Positions 78 through 34,863 of a stretch of 64,000 nucleotides of DNA are shown piece after piece. The notes under the pieces are model-generated. The model saw only the letters and a list, made by a program, of their open reading frames with translations. It had not been told where the DNA came from and did no database searches. The stretch comes from Henriciella mobilis (lineage in GTDB: Bacteria > Pseudomonadota > Alphaproteobacteria > Caulobacterales > Hyphomonadaceae), in contig NZ_QWFZ01000009.1 of the NCBI RefSeq assembly GCF_003576315.1, positions 1 through 64,000 of the forward strand. Direction: 5' to 3'. The position numbers were made by a program, and so were the translations under genes. The first letter of the stretch is position 1. Each line of letters starts with the position of its first letter.

Positions 78-1806
78 AAGCAAGTCCCTGTTGTGCCGCG
101 CGGCGGCAGTCGGCGTGGACAAGTCGCAGGTTCCGGTAGGAACCGTTCGCCCTGTCCCCATCCACATGAGACATGCGGATGGTTTCGCCATTGTAGAGGC
201 TCTCGCGGCAGGTCGGGCACTTGTGCCGTTGCCGCTGCGCAACCTTCTGCCAACTGCGCGTGAGGTCAGTCCCTCCCATCCGGCGGGCCCGGTTTCGCCA
301 GTAATCGGCGAGAGACGGATCGTCGGGAGAGTTGCGGTGTTTCACCATCGTCCAGCGCACGATTTTGATCGCGGCTGGATGGATCATGAACGCACCAGAC
401 TGCTTGTCCATAAAGGTGTAGCTGAAGTTCGGGCAGTTATAGTGCCGCCCGAAGTATTTCCGCATCCACCAGTGTTTCAGCTTCCTCGCATGGGCACGAT
501 GGCACCAGCGACGTTGCCGGACATGGACATAGTGTTCGATCCCTGAGAAGATTTTCCCGGCGACACTGTAACGGTAGTAGTTGCACCATCCACGTATTAC
601 CGGATTGGCAGCTGCAAGCAGTTGCCCCTGATCCGAGCCGACATGGGCGCGGAACAGGTCCCTGAGCTTCTTCCTAAACGCTTTAACGGCGTCCTTGGAA
701 GGTTTGATCAGGGTCTTCGTGCCAGCGGCGCGGTCTGCCACCTTATAGGAACGGACATTGAAGCCAAGGAAGTCGAAGCCTTCCCGTATGTGCCGGATAC
801 TGGTCTTCTCCTCGGAGAGGTTAAGGCCGCGCCCGGCGAGGAATGCAGCAACGCGCTCCCTGGCCTCAAGCGCTTGCGTCTCAGTGTGGCAGATGACGAC
901 GAAGTCGTCAGCATACCGCACGAAGACAGGGCAGTGAGGTTTCACGTATGAGGCGCTTGTGCCTCCACGATACTCAATGCCCAGCGCTTCTTCCATTCCA
1001 TGCAGGGCGATGTTGGCAAGGAGAGGACTAATGACCCCGCCTTGCGGTGTACCCTGCTCGGTGGCGTGGAACACGCCATCTTCCACATAGCCTGCCTTCA
1101 GCCAACGGCGGATCATTCCCCTTGCGGGGAAGTTGCCGATAGCCTCCATCAGGGCGTCATGGTCGATATTGTCGAAGCAGCCTTTGATATCGGCATCAAG
1201 AACCCAGACCCGTTTGGACCCGGACTTGGTTGCCAGATATATCCGCTCTATGGCGTCATGGACGCCACGACCGGGCCGGAACCCGTAGCTTGTCCCCTCG
1301 AACTGCGCTTCCCAACAGGGCTCAAGTGCATTGAGCACAATGGCCTGCTGGCACCGGTCGATGAGGGACGGGATTCCGAGCGGCCGCTTCTTGCCGCTCG
1401 CTTTAGGGATATACACCCTCCGGGCTGGAAGCGGTTCCCATGCCTTGAGGTTCACCAACTGGTTCGCAAGGCCGGCCCGCTCGGTCGGCGTCAGTGCGGT
1501 TCGCGCATCGACACCGGGAGAGGCTTTCCCACGATTGATCTGGCTGACCCTTCGGATGGAAACGAGCAGGTTCGCCCGGCTGTGCAGCATCAGCTTTTGC
1601 AACGAGCGGACCGTTTTCCAGTCCCGCATTTCAGTCGCCCGATAGATTCTCCGGCGCAGCGTCCTGACGGTTCGATAGGCGGCAGGCCAGTCAATGGTCT
1701 GCCAGTGAACAGTTCCGTCGCTTACGATCAGGCCTTGCGGCCCGTCCATCTTTTCACGAACGGTTCGGTTGCTGTTCCACGAGATTACGGGGGACTCACC
1801 AGTCAT
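76..1806 (-). CDS. ltrA: Group II intron reverse transcriptase/maturase with HNH endonuclease domain
   Basis: A 576-residue intron-encoded protein for splicing (maturase) and retrohoming. After an N-terminal segment, the RT palm and fingers occupy about residues 90-380. They include RPLGIPSLIDR, the GTPQGGVISPLLANI block, and the catalytic YADD box at about residue 300. The maturase/thumb follows (GWCNYYRYSV). The C-terminus is an HNH-type nuclease with CPTC near residue 535, SHVDGD, and LRLVHADCR. All catalytic residues checked look intact and no frameshift is seen, so the element may still be mobile. The stop lies only a few bases before domain V, the usual arrangement. The start follows an AAAGGG-like ribosome site. 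Confidence 0.93.
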   Translation of the reverse strand: MTGESPVISWNSNRTVREKMDGPQGLIVSDGTVHWQTIDWPAAYRTVRTLRRRIYRATEMRDWKTVRSLQKLMLHSRANLLVSIRRVSQINRGKASPGVDARTALTPTERAGLANQLVNLKAWEPLPARRVYIPKASGKKRPLGIPSLIDRCQQAIVLNALEPCWEAQFEGTSYGFRPGRGVHDAIERIYLATKSGSKRVWVLDADIKGCFDNIDHDALMEAIGNFPARGMIRRWLKAGYVEDGVFHATEQGTPQGGVISPLLANIALHGMEEALGIEYRGGTSASYVKPHCPVFVRYADDFVVICHTETQALEARERVAAFLAGRGLNLSEEKTSIRHIREGFDFLGFNVRSYKVADRAAGTKTLIKPSKDAVKAFRKKLRDLFRAHVGSDQGQLLAAANPVIRGWCNYYRYSVAGKIFSGIEHYVHVRQRRWCHRAHARKLKHWWMRKYFGRHYNCPNFSYTFMDKQSGAFMIHPAAIKIVRWTMVKHRNSPDDPSLADYWRNRARRMGGTDLTRSWQKVAQRQRHKCPTCRESLYNGETIRMSHVDGDRANGSYRNLRLVHADCRRAAQQGLA

Positions 1807-2333
1807 CTGTCAGCACCCTTTCAGGTTGGGCATGGCCCTATCCACCGGGTTATGTATTCCCCGTGCCTTTCGGCTGGCGGCATTCGCTTCTGATAACTTC
1901 CTACACCCGCTGAGGAGTTGGGCGGCTCTTGCGAGCCGCTTACCGGGCGCTGTTACCAGCGACCGGACCTCATCGGGGTTACTCAGTTCCGCATCTGTGA
2001 GATGCGACCGGGTTAGGTGCCTGCTATACGCCGGGGAATATCGACCTTCCGACTGAGGGATCCACGTGCCCCCAGCCCATTCCCTTGCTCCCCGTAAAAG
2101 CCACTTCCGGGGGACTGATGGGTAACGACGCATCAACACAGATTCACTTTCGTTCACCATACCGGTCTTCTCCTTGGGCGGTTCACCGGCGTGTGGCTGC
2201 CAGCTCCCCGCTCGTTTCCGGAGGCTTCGCACCAGCCAGTTACCCAGCTCGCACGCTCCGGCTAGAAATGGTCGAGAAGGCTCGACCAGAGGCATCCCTG
2301 CCTCACTCAACAGATGCGACTTTCTGGTCGCAC

Positions 2334-3741
2334 CGAGGACAGCCTCTTCTTCGGCGACCGCCAGTATCCATTACAGTTCCACAAGCAGAAGCTCTGGCTG
2401 CACCGGGCCTCCATGGCGCGCTACATGAAGCGGCTGGACGCGCTCAAACCGCCAGCCGAGCTCGTCGGCTACAAGGCTGGCGAGTCTGTCCTCAAGCTCA
2501 CCATTAAACGGCTGGCCAAAGAGGGCGTCACGGAGATTATCGCCTGCGACCCGACGGATTTCATTCTCGAAAAGCGCCTCAAATCCTATTGCGAGGCCGA
2601 AAACATCGACCTCACCCTGCTCAATACCCCGCTATTCCTCAACACGCCGGGCGAGAACCGGGCCTGGCGGGAGGATCACAAATCCTGGTTCCAGGCCGAG
2701 TTCTACAAGGCCCAGCGGCGCAAGCTCGGCGTGCTGATGGACGGGGACAAACCGGCCGGCGGGCAATGGAGCTTTGACGAGGACAACCGCAGGAAAGTCC
2801 CGAAATCATTACAGGGCGAGGTGCCGCGCCTGCGCCGGCTCACCCCCGACGAGATCGAGGAAGAGGCCCGCCGCTCTGTGCTGGAGGACTTCCCCGACAA
2901 TCCCGGATCGCTGGACCAGCTCTACTGGCCCACCTCCCATGAAGCGGCCGAAAGCTGGCTCGGCGCCTTCCTCAGTGAGCGGTTCGAGCGGTTCGGCCCC
3001 TATGAGGATGCGATTCTCGAAGGCGAGAGCCTGCTCTGGCATTCGGCCATCACGCCGATGCTGAATATCGGGCTGCTGACCCCGAAACTCGTCCTCGATG
3101 CGGCAATTTCCTTCATTGAGAACAAGGACATCCCGATGAACTCCGCCGAGGGCTTCATTCGCCAGGTGATTGGCTGGCGGGAGTTCATGCGCGCCACCTA
3201 TGAAGACCTCGGTGTTCCCATGCGCACCACCAATCACTGGGGCCATACCCGCGCCCTGCCCGCCTCATTCTGGACCGGCGAGACGGGCATCCCGCCCATC
3301 GACGACACGATCAAAAGGGTCCTGAAAACAGGGTACTGCCACCATATCGAGCGGCTGATGGTGCTCGGCGGCTTCATGTTCATCTGCGAGACCGACCCGG
3401 ACGACATCTATCGCTGGTTCATGGAGATGTTCGCCGACTCCTATGACTGGGTGATGGTGCCGAATGCCTATGCGATGAGCCAGAATGCCGATGGCGGACG
3501 GATCACGACAAAGCCTTATTTTTCAGGGTCTTCCTATGTCCGGAAGATGAGCAATTGGGGCACGGGCGACTGGTGCGATGTCTGGGACGGGCTCTACTGG
3601 CGCTGGATCTGGAAGAACCGCGAACCGCTCGCCGGCAATCCGCGCTGGGCGATGATGGTCTCCATGGCCGAGAAGATGGACGCAGCGAAACGCGACAAAC
3701 ACCTTGAAAACGCAGCGAATTTCCTGCGGGGGTTTCATTAG
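2334..3741 (+). pseudogene. PhrB-type cryptochrome/photolyase, 5' end cut off by the group II intron
   Basis: The 468 codons from the intron junction to the TAG at 3739 match the C-terminal nine-tenths of the prokaryotic (6-4) photolyase/cryptochrome PhrB family, normally about 500 residues. The N-terminal 35-40 residues should lie on the far side of the intron, outside the window. Family landmarks are visible: HKQKLWLHRASM near the junction, GFIRQVIGWREFMRATY, GYCHHIERLMVLGGFM and NAYAMSQNADGG. Most members have a CxxC...C iron-sulfur segment after KMS; here it is replaced by KMSNWGTGDWCDVWDGLYW, leaving one cysteine there plus the one in GYCHH. With the intron antisense, a full-length product is not expected. 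An internal ATG at 2314 belongs to the intron. Confidence 0.82.
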
Positions 3742-23913: not shown

Positions 23914-24432
23914 TTAACTTCCGAGGGTGGAAATTTCGCTTATCGGCTGGAGTAATGGCGACAGGGGCGCGCAGAGCAGCGCACCGGCGGCAATCGCGAC
24001 CCCATAAGGCACGCCATTGCCCGGCAGGAGTGTCTCGCGCGCAAAGCCTGGTGCTGCGGTGACCGGAACCAGCCGGCGGGCCAGCATCACGATTACGGCC
24101 AGCCCACCCCCCGTTACGGCCATGATGGTCACGAAGGGCATGGCCGCTTCCGGCCCGAGCCAAAGCATGACGCCGGGGATCATTTTCGCGTCTCCCCCGC
24201 CAAACGCGCCGACCATGAACAGGATCACCGATATCACGAAGGCGATGCCGCCAGCGGCCAGGTGACCGCCCGCCACGTCCCAACCCGGCGCAACGACGAT
24301 CACGGCGGGAATGAAAAGAAAGGCGATCAGGGCGTTCAGCCCGTTCGTAATGGTCAGGGATTCAATGTCGCGCAGGGCGGCATAGACGCAAAGTGTCAGG
24401 AAAAGGAAACCGAACAGGACGGCGATCAACAT
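23914..24432 (-). CDS. cpaA: Prepilin peptidase CpaA/TadV
   Basis: 172 residues, polytopic A24 aspartic protease that cleaves Flp prepilin after the Gly of its leader. The two catalytic aspartates appear in YAALRDIESLTITN (near residue 22) and in the GAFGGGDAKM motif (about residue 77). It lacks the cytoplasmic methylase domain of PilD, as is normal for TadV. It lies downstream of the flp terminator. Confidence 0.93.
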   Translation of the reverse strand: MLIAVLFGFLFLTLCVYAALRDIESLTITNGLNALIAFLFIPAVIVVAPGWDVAGGHLAAGGIAFVISVILFMVGAFGGGDAKMIPGVMLWLGPEAAMPFVTIMAVTGGGLAVIVMLARRLVPVTAAPGFARETLLPGNGVPYGVAIAAGALLCAPLSPLLQPISEISTLGS

Positions 24433-24511
24433 GCGGGCACTCTACTCAACTATACTTGAAGGTGAGACTAGCAGCCAAATCTGAAGACTTGCTTGCACCC
24501 CCAAAACGACT

Positions 24512-24539
24512 GAAGCCGCCGGAAGGGTCCGGCGGCTTC
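24512..24539 (-). terminator. Terminator/attenuator between flp and cpaA
   Basis: 11-bp stem GAAGCCGCCGG/CCGGCGGCTTC with a short loop, then AGTCGTTTTGG on the minus strand. Placed between the pilin gene and the machinery genes, it likely lets pilin mRNA accumulate above the cpa message. Confidence 0.75.
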
Positions 24540-24583
24540 GAATCATGTACCCGTGAGGGCATTAGGCTGAAGGTCAGCCTTTA

Positions 24584-24751
24584 TTAGTTGCCGGCGATGG
24601 CGCCAGCAACGTCGTTGAAGGTCGTCGCGGTGTTCGTGCCGAGAGCGCCAACAGCGCCGATGATCGCAACAGCGATCAGGGCAGCGATCAGGCCATACTC
24701 GATAGCGGTCGCACCAGACTCATTCTTGAAAAGACGTGCAAACTTTTTCAT
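24584..24751 (-). CDS. flp: Flp/Fap-type pilin
   Basis: 55 residues beginning MKKFARLFKNESGATAIEYG; the major Tad pilus subunit. The short basic leader ends in Gly13 before ATAIEYGLIAALIAVAIIG, the prepilin cleavage site with conserved Glu and Tyr five and six residues later, followed by the hydrophobic helix and a short Thr/Asn/Ala tail. GGAG lies at normal spacing before the ATG. It is the first gene of the cpa series, separated from cpaA by a terminator hairpin, and is divergent from the stand-alone CpaC-like gene. Confidence 0.96.
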   Translation of the reverse strand: MKKFARLFKNESGATAIEYGLIAALIAVAIIGAVGALGTNTATTFNDVAGAIAGN

Positions 24752-25051
24752 TTGGAGACTCCATCATCATACAGTTTGTTACGTTCCGATTGATTTGGTT
24801 TCCCCGGAACAGGTGCGGTTGTATCCAATAGCGCTGAATATCAAGTAAACCTGCTAACAAAATTCATGAATAGTGCAGTGCATTCTGTTAACCAATCACC
24901 GGATTGACCCGGGATAGAGCGATTTTTACTTAACGCGGAAACATCTTATAAATATTTAAAGCAGGAAACGGCAGCTCAGGCGTTAGGGATCGCGAAACCT
25001 TCTGGCCGCTATCTTCACGCCACGTTTCTAAAGCCACAGGAGAGGCCAAAA
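24752..25051. other. Divergent promoter region of flp and the CpaC-N-like gene
   Basis: About 300 bp with no gene. It is AT-rich in 24830-24960 and carries GTTAACC and CTTAACG motifs, but no full TTAA-N7-TTAA CtrA box was found. Confidence 0.5.
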
Positions 25052-25495
25052 ATGTCGTTTGCCGCGAAAGCTTCCGGCGTGCTCGTCGCCGGCCTGTTGA
25101 TGTCTGCTCCGGCGATTGCCCAGCAATACAGTGTCGAAAGCGGCACAACGAAGCCCGTTCGCCTGTCGCGCCCCGCTGCGAGCGTCGTGGTCGGCAACCA
25201 GAACATCGCAGATGTCGCAGTCGCCGATCCGCAACTGATCCTGCTCACCGGCAAATCGTTCGGGACCACCAATCTCCTCGTCTTCGATGCCGAGAACAAT
25301 CTTCTGGTTTCCGCCGACGTCATGGTGACCGCCAATACGGCGAACCTTGTCACGGTAAACCGCGCCGGCGCGAAGTTTACCTATGACTGCGCTAGCGACT
25401 GCCGCGACGCACCGGTCATCGGCGACGATCAGGGCCATTTCGGCAAGGCGATCGGCCAGGCCGAGCAGGCCAAGGAGCTGACCGAGCGCCGCTAG
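25052..25495 (+). CDS. Stand-alone pilus-assembly N-terminal domain protein
   Basis: 147 residues. Signal peptide (SGVLVAGLLMSAPAIAQ), then a domain like the N-terminal pilus-formation domain of CpaC secretins (KPVRLSRPAASVVVGNQNIADVAVADPQLILLTGKSFGTTNLLVFDAENNLL), without any secretin channel. Two Cys lie close together in YDCASDCRD. The C-terminal tail is charged. It starts after AGGAGAGG and ends at a strong terminator, so it is its own unit divergent from flp. It probably works in the periplasm with the Tad secretin; this is inferred from homology and place. Confidence 0.85.
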   Translation: MSFAAKASGVLVAGLLMSAPAIAQQYSVESGTTKPVRLSRPAASVVVGNQNIADVAVADPQLILLTGKSFGTTNLLVFDAENNLLVSADVMVTANTANLVTVNRAGAKFTYDCASDCRDAPVIGDDQGHFGKAIGQAEQAKELTERR

Positions 25496-30979: not shown

Positions 30980-31585
30980 ATGACCGTGACTCCCGAAACC
31001 GTTCTCGACTTCTGGCTCGGCGACCATCCCAGCCAGCCGGCCGTGCTTGAGACCAAGCAGAAATTGTGGTTCCAGAAGAGCTTCGAGACCGACCGGACCA
31101 TCGCCGACACCTTCGTCACGACGCTGGCCGACCTCGCCGCAGGCGAGGCCAAGACCTGGGCGAAGAAAGGGGCGCGCAGCCGGCTCGCCGCGATCATCGT
31201 GCTGGACCAGTTCAGCCGGAACATCTTTCGCGGCCATCGTTTTTCCTTCACCCACGATCCGATGGCGAAAAACCTCACCCTGACCGGCCTTGCCTTCAAT
31301 GAAGACCGGGAGCTGAGCGAGGTCGAGCGGGTCTTCTTCTATCTGCCGCTCGAACACTCCGAATCGCTGGACGACCAGAAAATGTCGGTGAAACTGTTCG
31401 AGGAACTCGCCCGCGAGGCCCGGCCGGCCTTCAAGGATTTCTGCGAAACAACGCTCGACTATGCCCGCAAGCACCTTGAGGTGATCGAACGGTTCGGGCG
31501 TTTCCCGCACCGCAACGCCGTTCTGCGCCGCCCCTCCACGCGCGAGGAACAGGCCTATCTAAGCGAGCCCGGCGCCGGTTTTTGA
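30980..31585 (+). CDS. DUF924 family protein
   Basis: 201 residues, helical (TPR-like fold in the family). Recognised by VLDFWLGDHP near the start, WFQKSFETDRTIADTF, ARSRLAAIIVLDQFSRNIFRG, FFYLPLEHSESLDDQ and the end NAVLRRPSTREEQAYL. The biochemical role is unknown. It follows ubiG closely. Its last 27 bases overlap the 3' end of the convergent LuxR/hydrolase gene. Confidence 0.93.
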   Translation: MTVTPETVLDFWLGDHPSQPAVLETKQKLWFQKSFETDRTIADTFVTTLADLAAGEAKTWAKKGARSRLAAIIVLDQFSRNIFRGHRFSFTHDPMAKNLTLTGLAFNEDRELSEVERVFFYLPLEHSESLDDQKMSVKLFEELAREARPAFKDFCETTLDYARKHLEVIERFGRFPHRNAVLRRPSTREEQAYLSEPGAGF

Positions 31586-33340
31586 TTTCGCCGACGCCAA
31601 TGGTTCGGAGTCGCGCCAGATCTTCTCCATCTCGGAAATTACATTCGGCCAGTGGCTGTAGAGCAGGTACTGGCCGGCATCGGGGATCTCGATCAGCTCC
31701 ACATTGGGCACCGTATCGGCAAACAGCCTGAACATCTCCGGCGTGAAGACATTGTCCTTCAGCCCATGAATGATCCGGAACGGGCAGCGCACGCGCCGGG
31801 CAATGTCGCGGCGGTCGGTCAGCGCCAGGCGGATCTCGGCGATCAGGCCGTGCGCCCCCTGCTGGACAGTATGGCGTAACCCATCGAAGAGGACGTCCCG
31901 GACTTCCGGACGGCGCGCAATACGCTGTTCGAGCGGGGAATCCCGGTGCAGCGTCTTCAGCACGAACTCCTCCCGGCCGGTATCGATAAAGGCGACGGTG
32001 GCGCGCGCAATGAAACCGATGGCCGATGGCGCACGCAGCAGCGTCGTGACCATGATCCTGTGGTGCCAGGGCATTCCGCTTTCCATGCCCTCTTCCCAGC
32101 TTGTCTCGCCGCCAATCGACAGCAAGGCCCGGGTGCGCTCCGGCCGGCGGGCGGCAAAGTCCTGCGCGTGGATCATGCCATTGGCATGTGCTGCGACGAG
32201 GACGGTCGGGATTTCCAGCCGGTTCAGCAGCTGCTCGCAGGAATCGGCCGTCGCTTCGATACGCTGTTCCGGCGTTGCAGCGGCCACGCGCTCCGACAGG
32301 CCGAAGCCCGGCCGCGATGGCGCGATGACCCGCCAGCCCTGCCGGGCCAGCGCCTCGATGGCCTGCTCGGTCCAGCGCGGCGCAAAATAGATATTGTGAA
32401 AGAACAGGACCGGGCGGCCAGCCGGGTCACCCATTTCCAGCCAGGCGAAGCGCCGCCCGTCCGACAGCGTCATCGTGTGCTGCGACAGCCAGCGGTCGAT
32501 GTCGCGGCGCGCCGGCGACTGGCGGGCAATGGCGCTGACCGCATTCATCGTCGCGCCGAACCCGGTCAGGATGCGCACCGCATCGGTGGTCGTCGCCACG
32601 TCCAGCTTGGCCAGCACCGCGCGGATCTGGCTGCGGACTGTCGCCATGCTCGCCTTTCGCGCCCTTGCAATCGTTTCAGGCGTCTCGCCACGCCCGAGGC
32701 GGAAGGCGACGTCGAGTTCGGCCGATGACAGGCCGTATGTTTCGGCCAGCTTGTCAGCAACGCCAGCGTGCAGGTGGACCTCGACCGCGGCAAGCAGCAC
32801 AGCATCCTCGCTCGAGGTGCCGGGCCCCGCACTGAGGCTGATCCGCGTCGCGAGCAATCGCGTATTGACCGCCTCGCCGCCCACGACGGCAGGCAGCAGC
32901 AGGAAGGGCCCGCGTTCGGACGGACCGGTGTTCGGGGTCATCCAGCTGCGCAGCCTGGCCACAGCGGCGGCATCCAGCGACAGGTCGTCCAGCGTCTCCG
33001 GCGTCCGCCCGCCGAGCAGGTCGATGCAGGCTTCATTGCAGTTCAGAACGTCGCCATCGGGCTTCAGGATGACGGCCGGGCCCGGCATCTGGCTGGCGAT
33101 CATGCGGGCCGATTCATCGCGCGCCTCGACGCGGCCCATCCGGTCGAGGATGGCGAGCGCGCGCTGGAAGTGGGCATTCACCTGATCGGCCCGGAAAGCA
33201 TCGTCACTCTCGGTTTCGGGCAGATTGTCGATGTAATCGGACCAGGCTGCCAGAAGCGCTTCGTAGCGCTCCGGATTCAGTGTCGTCGCATAGGTTTCGT
33301 CGACTACGCGATCTGTTTCAGGAATCTTTGTACCGTGCAC
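31559..33340 (-). CDS. LuxR-type regulator fused to a catalytically degenerate alpha/beta-hydrolase domain
   Basis: 593 residues from the chosen GTG start at 33340, which has CCGGAG nine bases upstream; a frame extension to 33559 exists but begins in non-coding-like sequence. Order: a PAS-like segment (about 80-150, MPGPAVILKPDGDVLNCNEACIDLLG), a LuxR/GerE helix-turn-helix (about 185-250, YGLSSAELDVAFRLGRGETPETIARARKASMATVRSQI), then a full alpha/beta-hydrolase fold (about 280-580). The nucleophile elbow reads AHANG (Ala near residue 386) instead of GxSxG, and the expected catalytic His is Gln in DAGQYLLYSHW (about 557), while the HGLKDNVF acid position remains. So the hydrolase part is likely a ligand-sensing module, not an enzyme. 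No membrane segment is seen. Confidence 0.87.
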   Translation of the reverse strand: MHGTKIPETDRVVDETYATTLNPERYEALLAAWSDYIDNLPETESDDAFRADQVNAHFQRALAILDRMGRVEARDESARMIASQMPGPAVILKPDGDVLNCNEACIDLLGGRTPETLDDLSLDAAAVARLRSWMTPNTGPSERGPFLLLPAVVGGEAVNTRLLATRISLSAGPGTSSEDAVLLAAVEVHLHAGVADKLAETYGLSSAELDVAFRLGRGETPETIARARKASMATVRSQIRAVLAKLDVATTTDAVRILTGFGATMNAVSAIARQSPARRDIDRWLSQHTMTLSDGRRFAWLEMGDPAGRPVLFFHNIYFAPRWTEQAIEALARQGWRVIAPSRPGFGLSERVAAATPEQRIEATADSCEQLLNRLEIPTVLVAAHANGMIHAQDFAARRPERTRALLSIGGETSWEEGMESGMPWHHRIMVTTLLRAPSAIGFIARATVAFIDTGREEFVLKTLHRDSPLEQRIARRPEVRDVLFDGLRHTVQQGAHGLIAEIRLALTDRRDIARRVRCPFRIIHGLKDNVFTPEMFRLFADTVPNVELIEIPDAGQYLLYSHWPNVISEMEKIWRDSEPLASAKSKTGAGLA

Positions 33341-33506
33341 AGAGTTGTTCTCCGGACTCACCCGTTTTCTGGAATGGATCAGCGTTGCCACGCAAAAACG
33401 TGACAAACCCTGCCCCCTTTCATCAAATTTGATGATGCGGGCTTCGGCAACTAAAGGCAATAACAGTGTCGATAACTGATTGCTGTGTGAGGGGTCGTGC
33501 GCGGAA

Positions 33507-33543
33507 AACGGGCGGAGCTGGATTTTATTCAGCTTCGCCCGTT
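33507..33543. promoter_or_regulatory. Strong hairpin upstream of the MFS gene
   Basis: Arms AACGGGCGGAGCTG and CAGCTTCGCCCGTT pair over 14 positions (one G-T), with a 9-nt AT-rich loop, 64 bases before the MFS start. There is no clear T-tract on either side, so a 5'-leader structure is as likely as a terminator. Confidence 0.5.
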
Positions 33544-33606
33544 GCCGTTTCTGCCCCATGGCCCCAGATACGCGCTCGTCTGAAATCCAGTTACCGGGGG
33601 GCGATC

Positions 33607-34863
33607 ATGCTGAAAACGCAAGACTTGCCCCGCCGGGGAGCCGTCGCCCGGCCCGTGCTGCCGCTACCGCTCTGGGAATTTGTCGGCATGATCGCCGCCA
33701 TGATGGCACTGAACGCGCTGGCGATCGACACGATGCTGCCGGCGCTTCACAACATTGCGACGACCTACTCCCTCCAGCACGAGAATGACCAGCAGCTCGT
33801 CATTTTCGCCTATGTCCTCGGCTTCGGTGCGCCGCAGCTCGTCTTCGGCCCGATCTCGGACCGGTTCGGGCGCAAGGGAGTGGCGCTGTTCTGCATCGCG
33901 GCCTACTCGATCGCGGGCTTCGCCTGCATGCTGTCCTGGACGTTCGACCTGCTCCTGTTCACGCGGTTCCTGCAGGGCATCGCCGCTTCGGGCATCCGCG
34001 TGGTGGCGGTGTCGATCGTGCGCGATCTCATGGAAGGCCGCGCGATGGCGCGCATCATGTCGCTGGTCATGACGGTCTTCATGATCGTGCCGATCCTCGC
34101 CCCCGCCGTCGGACAGGGCGTGATGCTGCTTGCGCCCTGGCAATGGACATTCGGCATACTGAGCCTGGCCGGCATCGGCTGCGGCACCTGGATCGCGCTG
34201 CGCCTGCCGGAAACGCTGAAGCCGGAAGACCGCCAGCCCCTGAACGTCGCGCAGACCTTCCGGGGCTACAAGCGGGTCGTGACCACACCCGTCACGATTG
34301 GATACATGGGCGCCAGCGGCGTCATCTTCGGCGCGCTGTTTTCCTATGTGGCCTCCTCCGAGCAGGTGTTCCGCGAAGTGTTCAACAAGACCGACACCTT
34401 CGTGCTGTGGTTTGCCGGGATCGCCGGCGCGCTGTCGGTCTCGAACTTCATGAACTCGCGCATCGTCGAACGTTTCGGCATGCGCCGCGTCAGCCATACG
34501 GTGCTGATCGGCTTCATCCTGCTGTCCATCCTCAATGCGGTCCTGATGGCAACGATGGGCGAGCGGCTGGAGATTTTCTATCCGCTCTTCGCCCTGACCT
34601 TTGCCTGCTTCGGGATGATGGGCGCGAACTTCTCCGCCTTGGGCATGGAGCCGCTCGGCCGGATCGCGGGAACAGCCAGCGCCGCCTACGGCTTCATGAC
34701 GACGACGGTGGCGAGTTTCTTCGGCTGGATGGTGGCGAGCCGCTTTGATGGGTCCGTCGTGCCGATCCTGGAAGGCTATGTCGGGCTCGGGATCGCGTCG
34801 CTGGTGATCGTCCTGATCACAGAGCGCGGCAAGCTGTTCGGCACGCGTGAAGACGAAGCCTAG
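33607..34863 (+). CDS. MFS transporter, Bcr/CflA drug-efflux type
   Basis: 418 residues with 12 predicted membrane helices. Hallmarks: N-terminal LNALAIDTMLPALHNIATTY (helix 1 of the Bcr/CflA DHA1 group), the loop 2-3 signature GPISDRFGRKGVALFCIAAY and RFLQGIAASGIRVVAVSIVRDLMEG. It probably exports drugs or other small hydrophobic compounds by proton antiport. The start MLKTQDL is chosen since the 47 codons upstream do not resemble a protein. It is divergent from the LuxR/hydrolase fusion gene, which makes that protein a possible regulator. Confidence 0.92.
   Translation: MLKTQDLPRRGAVARPVLPLPLWEFVGMIAAMMALNALAIDTMLPALHNIATTYSLQHENDQQLVIFAYVLGFGAPQLVFGPISDRFGRKGVALFCIAAYSIAGFACMLSWTFDLLLFTRFLQGIAASGIRVVAVSIVRDLMEGRAMARIMSLVMTVFMIVPILAPAVGQGVMLLAPWQWTFGILSLAGIGCGTWIALRLPETLKPEDRQPLNVAQTFRGYKRVVTTPVTIGYMGASGVIFGALFSYVASSEQVFREVFNKTDTFVLWFAGIAGALSVSNFMNSRIVERFGMRRVSHTVLIGFILLSILNAVLMATMGERLEIFYPLFALTFACFGMMGANFSALGMEPLGRIAGTASAAYGFMTTTVASFFGWMVASRFDGSVVPILEGYVGLGIASLVIVLITERGKLFGTREDEA

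Follow-up and report, generated by a model that had tools for sequence, protein, structure and literature searches.

A LuxR-type regulator of Henriciella mobilis carries an alpha/beta-hydrolase domain that has lost its catalytic Ser and His and may act as a sensor

The regulator described here (the query) is encoded in a 64,000-nucleotide stretch of DNA from the alphaproteobacterium Henriciella mobilis (contig NZ_QWFZ01000009.1, positions 1 to 64,000; hereafter the window), where translation of the minus strand gives an uninterrupted frame of 593 amino acids with a GTG start (Table 1). Its product consists of N-terminal helices, a PAS domain, a NarL/LuxR-type helix-turn-helix (HTH) and a C-terminal alpha/beta-hydrolase fold, in which the catalytic Ser and His are replaced by Ala and Gln. 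A neighboring DUF924-like gene overlaps the regulator gene tail to tail, and on the other side lies a divergent gene for a Bcr/CflA-like exporter, with 266 bp between the two starts.

Table 1. Coordinates of the regulator gene, its domains and active-site positions, and the adjoining features, given as positions of the window.
Feature	Coordinates	Strand	Evidence
Regulator gene, 593 aa, GTG start; N-terminal helices, PAS, NarL/LuxR HTH, alpha/beta-hydrolase fold	31559..33340	-	Translation, Pfam, AlphaFold2 model, orthologs
N-terminal helical module, residues 7-83	33092..33322	-	Helices in both structure models; ortholog identity
PAS domain, residues 84-190	32771..33091	-	Strand-helix order of models; Foldseek; weak Pfam matches
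NarL/LuxR-type HTH, residues 198-262	32555..32749	-	
Alpha/beta-hydrolase domain, residues 285-578, helical cap about 419-506	31607..32488	-	
Ala386, nucleophile position, elbow AHANG	32183..32185	-	Translation, alignment, AlphaFold2 model
Asp529, catalytic acid position, retained	31754..31756	-	Translation, alignment, conservation, AlphaFold2 model
Gln557, catalytic His position, invariant in 12-row clade	31670..31672	-	Alignment, conservation, AlphaFold2 model
18-bp palindrome TTCATCAAATTTGATGAT, proposed operator of the regulator	33419..33436	.	Conservation, mismatch searches
Inverted repeat, 17-bp stem, beside the putative -35 of the exporter	33507..33543	.	Fold energy z -4.35 (+ strand), -3.99 (- strand)
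Bcr/CflA-like exporter of the major facilitator superfamily, divergent conserved neighbor, possible target	33607..34863	+	TIGR00710 174.8 bits, below cut-off 200.9; synteny

An earlier note on this DNA, made from the sequence alone, had recognized a complete hydrolase fold, a PAS-like segment and a LuxR DNA-binding domain in the protein, and all three were recovered. The hydrolase is matched by Pfam Abhydrolase_1 at residues 323-561 (E-value 2e-13; 51 bits, cut-off 25.8) and is complete in an AlphaFold2 model of the full regulator (11 sequences; mean predicted local distance difference test score, pLDDT, 84.3), where a long helix after the HTH leads straight into it. GerE at residues 204-257 scored 19.8 bits in the Pfam protein scan, below the cut-off of 23.5, and 24.3 bits, above it, in the genome search; as this latter score, the profile of the N-terminal half, which matches VraR and LiaR-type DNA-binding domains, and the fold matches agree, we accept a GerE-type HTH despite the lower score. 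Fold searches gave hydrolase, PAS-type and LuxR-type folds among the matches listed, and the best full-span Foldseek matches of the N-terminal half, again among those listed, were EL222 (E-value 4.8e-6) and VqmA (5.6e-6). The PAS segment also matches Pfam MLTR_LBD weakly, below the cut-off of that family, and PAS_8 was matched in two of 20 fusion members. A second model, of residues 1-290 (9 sequences), reached a mean pLDDT of 73.6, with the first 20 residues poor. With its PAS domain placed N-terminal to a GerE HTH, the protein belongs to the PAS-LuxR regulators; the autoinducer-binding domain of acyl-homoserine-lactone LuxR receptors was absent among the six Pfam families matched at E-values up to 1, and the N-terminal half folds as PAS.

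In the predicted structure, Ala386, Asp529 and Gln557 occupy the three canonical Ser, Asp and His positions. Ala386 (motif AHANG, residues 384-388) sits at the turn joining strand 380-385 to helix 386-398, Asp529 (HGLKDN, 525-530) in the loop after strand 521-526, and Gln557 (DAGQYLLY, 554-561) in the loop after strand 547-552. Translation, alignment and model thus confirm the loss of Ser and His, with the acid kept, that the earlier note had read from the sequence: the query has the fold of a catalytic alpha/beta hydrolase (Abhydrolase_1/6) and lacks its nucleophile-acid-His set. The oxyanion HG motif is changed as well, to HN in the query and to HH or HQ in the other six Henriciella orthologs. 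These six proteins, 54-70% identical to the query, all carry Ala-Asp-Gln (A-D-Q), and since the Ala and Gln are identical in all seven orthologs, a sequencing error or chance is unlikely.

The altered domain is well conserved. Among the seven orthologs, all of which have a full-length open frame, mean pairwise identity is 68% in the hydrolase, 69% in the HTH and 50% in the PAS domain, and reaches 64% over residues 12-73 of the N-terminal module. The ratio of nonsynonymous to synonymous substitution (dN/dS) in the hydrolase lies between 0.06 and 0.32 in all 21 ortholog pairs, by a simple count with dS nearly saturated. With identity equal to that of the HTH and a low dN/dS, it does not resemble a drifting dead domain, and from the sequences it looks like a maintained pseudoenzyme domain, kept by selection.

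The earlier note had proposed structure prediction and alignment of homologs to see whether the loss is family-wide, and just seven of the 74 LuxR-hydrolase fusions counted indeed have the full triad. The query falls into a 12-row clade (SH-like approximate likelihood ratio test, SH-aLRT, 98) that comprises the seven orthologs together with L011 (another Henriciella, the genome of L038), L039 (an alphaproteobacterial metagenome-assembled genome, MAG), L040 (Pacificimonas), L041 (a gammaproteobacterial MAG) and L052. The site reads Ala/Val-Asp-Gln in all 12 rows, and Gln557, like His315, His385 and His563, is invariant. Outside this clade the states are graded: among the 74 fusions Ser-Asp-His (S-D-H) is complete in seven, Ser is retained and His lost in ten (nine of the 74 have lost only His, keeping Ser and Asp), His is retained and Ser lost in 12, and both are lost in 45. 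The nucleophile position is held by Ser (17 fusions), Gln (15), Ala (14), Thr and Gly (6 each), Asp (5), Val (3), His and Met (2 each), and by Asn, Leu, Cys and Arg in one fusion each. All nine standalone hydrolase relatives, tallied separately, have S-D-H, and therefore the catalytic columns are aligned sensibly. Because the rows are related, the losses cannot be counted as independent; on the tree at least four changes are needed for the nucleophile and seven for the His, with gain and loss not distinguishable. Going by this alignment, loss of catalytic residues runs through the family in graded form and is not a one-off.

Two observations weigh against extending this to every member. Of the 12 fusions that keep His without Ser, five carry Asp and one Cys at the nucleophile position; such rows could still be catalytic, and therefore not every fusion is certainly dead. 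Moreover, fusions with an intact triad do exist, which is half of what the earlier note had said would speak against its reading; the other half, measured esterase activity, was found for none of them, and none lies in the clade of the query, two of the seven being absent from the tree used for placement.

These figures reflect how the rows were gathered. At most the best three candidates per genome were scored in the alignment searches and the best 12 in the protein search, so that the distribution counts give minimum values with a bias toward the query (set A2 holds mostly dead members, set A4 gamma-type members); the hits read were those with a locus, at most 30 per search. One round of frame collection excluded L001-L003, L034-L038 and L047 as unrelated or as copies of loci already used, which places the second L038 copy outside the 74; a later round found 31 frames, of which 12 were added, the remainder being repeats of known frames. 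Five duplicates, five missing-site or fragment rows, one row without an HTH in frame and one regulator without hydrolase were removed before the count. The tree contains 73 rows, with the catalytic columns excluded from the alignment and with truncated, duplicate and fragment rows left out (L033, L047, L048, L060, L063, L066, L089, L090 and the L041 fragment); it stems from a quick search with long branches and unsure deep placements, and only its 7- and 12-row sets are relied on. Note also that L053, L054, L055, L056 and L075, which combine an Asp nucleophile with a retained His, could be active enzymes of dehalogenase or epoxide-hydrolase type fused to LuxR.

In one genome (L168/L173), a PAS-LuxR frame of 399 amino acids overlaps the start of a separate hydrolase frame of 285 amino acids, the pair lying on the minus strand of L173 at offsets 1300-3338. 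The separate hydrolase has the motif GFSGGG and an intact Asp and His. Judged by its sequence, this pair has the form expected of an ancestor before fusion. No second example was seen, as another genome of the same genus gave just an ordinary standalone hydrolase.

EL222 and VqmA, which are PAS-LuxR one-component regulators, show the same order of PAS and NarL/LuxR-type HTH as the query. Both end at the HTH, whereas in the query a hydrolase fold of 290 amino acids follows. The standalone alpha/beta hydrolases (arylesterases and chloroperoxidases; best fold match 9wlv among the matches listed) differ in that the relatives counted keep S-D-H. The plant receptor GID1, to our knowledge, is without a DNA-binding domain. 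It sets a functional precedent for the use of a dead hydrolase in a receptor: this member of the plant carboxylesterase family is said to have Ile or Val in place of the catalytic His and otherwise to keep most of the canonical residues (PMC10873640). The parallel drawn with it in the earlier note is therefore apt in kind and inexact in detail, GID1 having lost the His with most other canonical residues kept, and the query both Ser and His. The nearest printed concept that we found is the RsbQ-PAS module, known from RsbQ-RsbP, in which a triad-intact hydrolase, the product of a separate gene, acts with PAS; its triad is required, and the output is a phosphatase, a histidine kinase or a diguanylate cyclase (PMC3183031). 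The query, in contrast, has neither a separate RsbQ gene nor a conserved S-D-H, its hydrolase standing in cis, in the same frame as PAS and a DNA-binding output. The word LuxR does not occur in the main text of that paper (PMC3183031). In the main text of a census of 991 actinobacterial LuxR proteins, no word begins with hydrolase, although an HDc phosphohydrolase is mentioned, and no LuxR-alpha/beta-hydrolase fusion was found in the open-access literature, going by titles and abstract starts. What appears to be new here, as far as sequences tell, is an input module of PAS and a no longer catalytic hydrolase, joined in cis to an output that binds DNA.

Between the regulator and the exporter, the palindrome is the most conserved 16-bp block of the 260 bp before the exporter (mean agreement 0.94, versus 0.61 overall). 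Mismatches to ATCATCAANNTTGATGAT in the seven ortholog loci number 0, 0, 0, 1, 1, 2 and 3, and the 29 Henriciella genomes hold nine sites at one mismatch or fewer, five of them at the regulator, including all three perfect ones. A looser consensus, TCAYCN6GRTGA, is matched exactly upstream of three fusions that are not among the orthologs (L012, L013 and L086), at 68-85 bp from their estimated starts; it occurs in none of 70 controls taken within open reading frames, with a shuffled mean of 0.05, the upstream scan having covered 70 regions after one too-short region, standalones and duplicates were left out. The palindrome is thus probably an operator of the regulator itself, a candidate put forward from sequence conservation. 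With a site that is rare and local, autoregulation is a better fit than control of a wide regulon, and because the conserved palindrome stands between the two genes, autoregulation is better supported than the exporter as target. Several points count against this assignment: four of the nine genus sites lie away from the regulator, and three of the four places within two mismatches in the genome of the query are elsewhere; the consensus was picked after L012, L013 and L086 had been seen, which makes its count post hoc; 61 of the 70 upstream regions are without it, and its excess fades with one mismatch (11/70 versus 6/70 controls) and with two (36 versus 34). In addition, the regulator-less exporter loci are without the whole intergenic segment, which in part accounts for the missing palindrome at these loci, and a scan of 33300-33650 for sigma-70-like promoters and terminators found no site.

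We would like to mention further features of this kind. A palindrome-like site with one mismatch at C33:342419 of the same genome stands beside frames that by eye resemble cheR and a decarboxylase, and L014, L015 and L016, which form a clade with Thr-Asp-Glu at the catalytic site, have a different palindrome, CATATGTCATGTGACATATG, near the gene start, perhaps a clade-specific operator. The inverted repeat beyond the palindrome recurs by eye at the same place in the seven regulator-bearing loci, with differing arms (the scan found it in L007, L008 and L010), and was not seen by eye in the regulator-less loci compared. It has no T-run and no Rfam family; two sub-threshold Rfam matches within 33200-33800 were taken as chance.

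We consider it somewhat probable that the query is a one-component regulator with PAS and a dead hydrolase as input and the HTH as output, which binds its own palindrome and whose pocket senses a ligand or partner without turnover. PAS and the former hydrolase would form a joint input, and a dimer of the NarL/LuxR-type HTH the output; the 18-bp palindrome upstream of its own gene would be bound, most likely for control of that gene and possibly of the divergent exporter. The pocket (Ala386, Asp529 and Gln557, with His315, His385 and His563) would hold its ligand or partner unconverted, and its occupancy would shift the HTH between DNA-binding states of different affinity. Such a protein may have arisen when a PAS-LuxR gene fused with a downstream hydrolase gene, catalysis being lost afterward. 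The conversion of enzyme to sensor suggested in the earlier note stands as the most economical reading of these sequences, because Ser and His loss is widespread in the family, selection maintains the fold, and its class (esterases, lactonases, peroxidases) provides a natural small-molecule pocket.

An argument for another role of the domain is that a need to dimerise or to touch another protein could explain the conserved fold just as well. The dead hydrolase would then be a platform for protein interaction or dimerisation instead of a small-molecule pocket, much as the hydrolase PqsE, which has a metallo-beta-lactamase fold, influences the LuxR-type RhlR through contact; the long post-HTH helix, which directly precedes the hydrolase in the model, has a dimerisation role in the LuxR-type family, the fold is conserved without its catalytic residues, and neighboring paralog copies in L038, L039 and L041 (the second L041 copy cut by the contig end) could heterodimerise. 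We hold this unlikely, since Gln557, Asp529, His385 and His315, which occupy or adjoin active-site positions, are invariant in the 12-row clade, and a pure surface role needs none of them. The same invariance of Asp529, His315, His385 and His563 could be turned in favor of a retained non-canonical catalysis, a lyase or cyclase for example, acting through these residues and Gln557, and some proteins of the fold do perform other chemistry (PMC10873640). Position 386 is nevertheless without a nucleophile, the oxyanion motif is altered in all seven orthologs, and the nucleophile residue changes greatly from fusion to fusion (Q, A, T, G, V, H, M, N, L and R besides S, D and C), which makes continued catalysis very improbable. 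That the domain is a decaying passenger without function, as its repeated catalytic-residue changes might suggest, is hardly credible and disfavored in view of the purifying selection, the HTH-like identity, the full-length frames in all seven orthologs and the invariant Gln557.

A further proposal, compatible with the ligand-sensing regulator favored here, concerns its target: that its main job is control, triggered by a toxic compound, of the Bcr/CflA-like exporter. The divergent pair is found in 7/7 regulator-bearing Henriciella loci, with the conserved palindrome and the inverted repeat between the genes. However, the region is syntenic, and hence this co-location counts as one event, and the exporter is present in 28 of 29 Henriciella genomes versus seven for the regulator. 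Comparison of 20 exporter loci, out of the 28 genomes with the exporter, showed UbiG and DUF924-like genes (named by eye) running directly into the exporter in seven regulator-less genomes (L097-L103), while in the seven regulator-bearing loci the regulator and the intergenic region stand between them. A promoter-like core before the exporter (GTTGC followed at about 17-18 bp by AGATA, read by eye from an alignment) is common to both sets and not clear in the more distant exporters L105-L110. As the exporter is present without the regulator, it does not need it; nor was an exporter relative found at L038, L039, L040 or L041 (search at E-value 1e-8), L038 and L039 having CS1-type pilus genes as neighbors instead. 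The exporter as target, put forward in the earlier note, is thereby weakened, and we regard it as a rather doubtful main job, although the regulator may modulate it.

A broader proposition, which we advance tentatively and with less than even confidence, is that the fusions form a large bacterial class of receptor-transcription factors, in which hydrolase pockets turned into hormone-type receptors several times over, through residue changes that differ from case to case. The visible stages would be the intact unfused operon, fusions with an intact triad, loss of His only and full loss, and the Ala/Val-Asp-Gln pocket of the query clade would respond to a signal, with a palindromic operator close to its own gene as the site of action. 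Conversion of an enzyme to a receptor is known from plant hormone perception; if true in bacterial transcription factors, it would provide several conversions with intermediates, in cultivable bacteria and with DNA binding as a ready reporter, and the palindrome offers a direct DNA-binding assay for finding the ligand. The fusions are also a warning for annotation pipelines, as they score as hydrolases, yet most of those counted are without the catalytic residues.

Elsewhere in the family, L038 (5462-16956) and L039 (2501-12405), which belong to the clade of the query but not to the syntenic set, have two fusion copies each within CS1-type chaperone-usher loci (TcfC E-value 6e-18, CooC_C), an arrangement that hints at alternative chaperone-usher pili as the regulated structures, with heterodimers perhaps in control. 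Clustering of the neighbors of 24 loci gave no family present in more than two of them, and therefore no common target emerges. By phmmer, an usher is present in two of these loci, an autotransporter domain in one and neither in the other 21, so that surface structures are a hint and not a rule. The usher in L038 and L039 is adjoined by several CS1-pilin-like secreted proteins (pilin and chaperone names were given by eye, with no Pfam match for those tested). A more distant fusion (Leu-Asp-Gln; L124, 5495-12835) stands between two autotransporter genes in the same direction, and the window itself contains, at 23914-25495, frames that by eye resemble a prepilin peptidase and the N-terminal domain of a pilus secretin.
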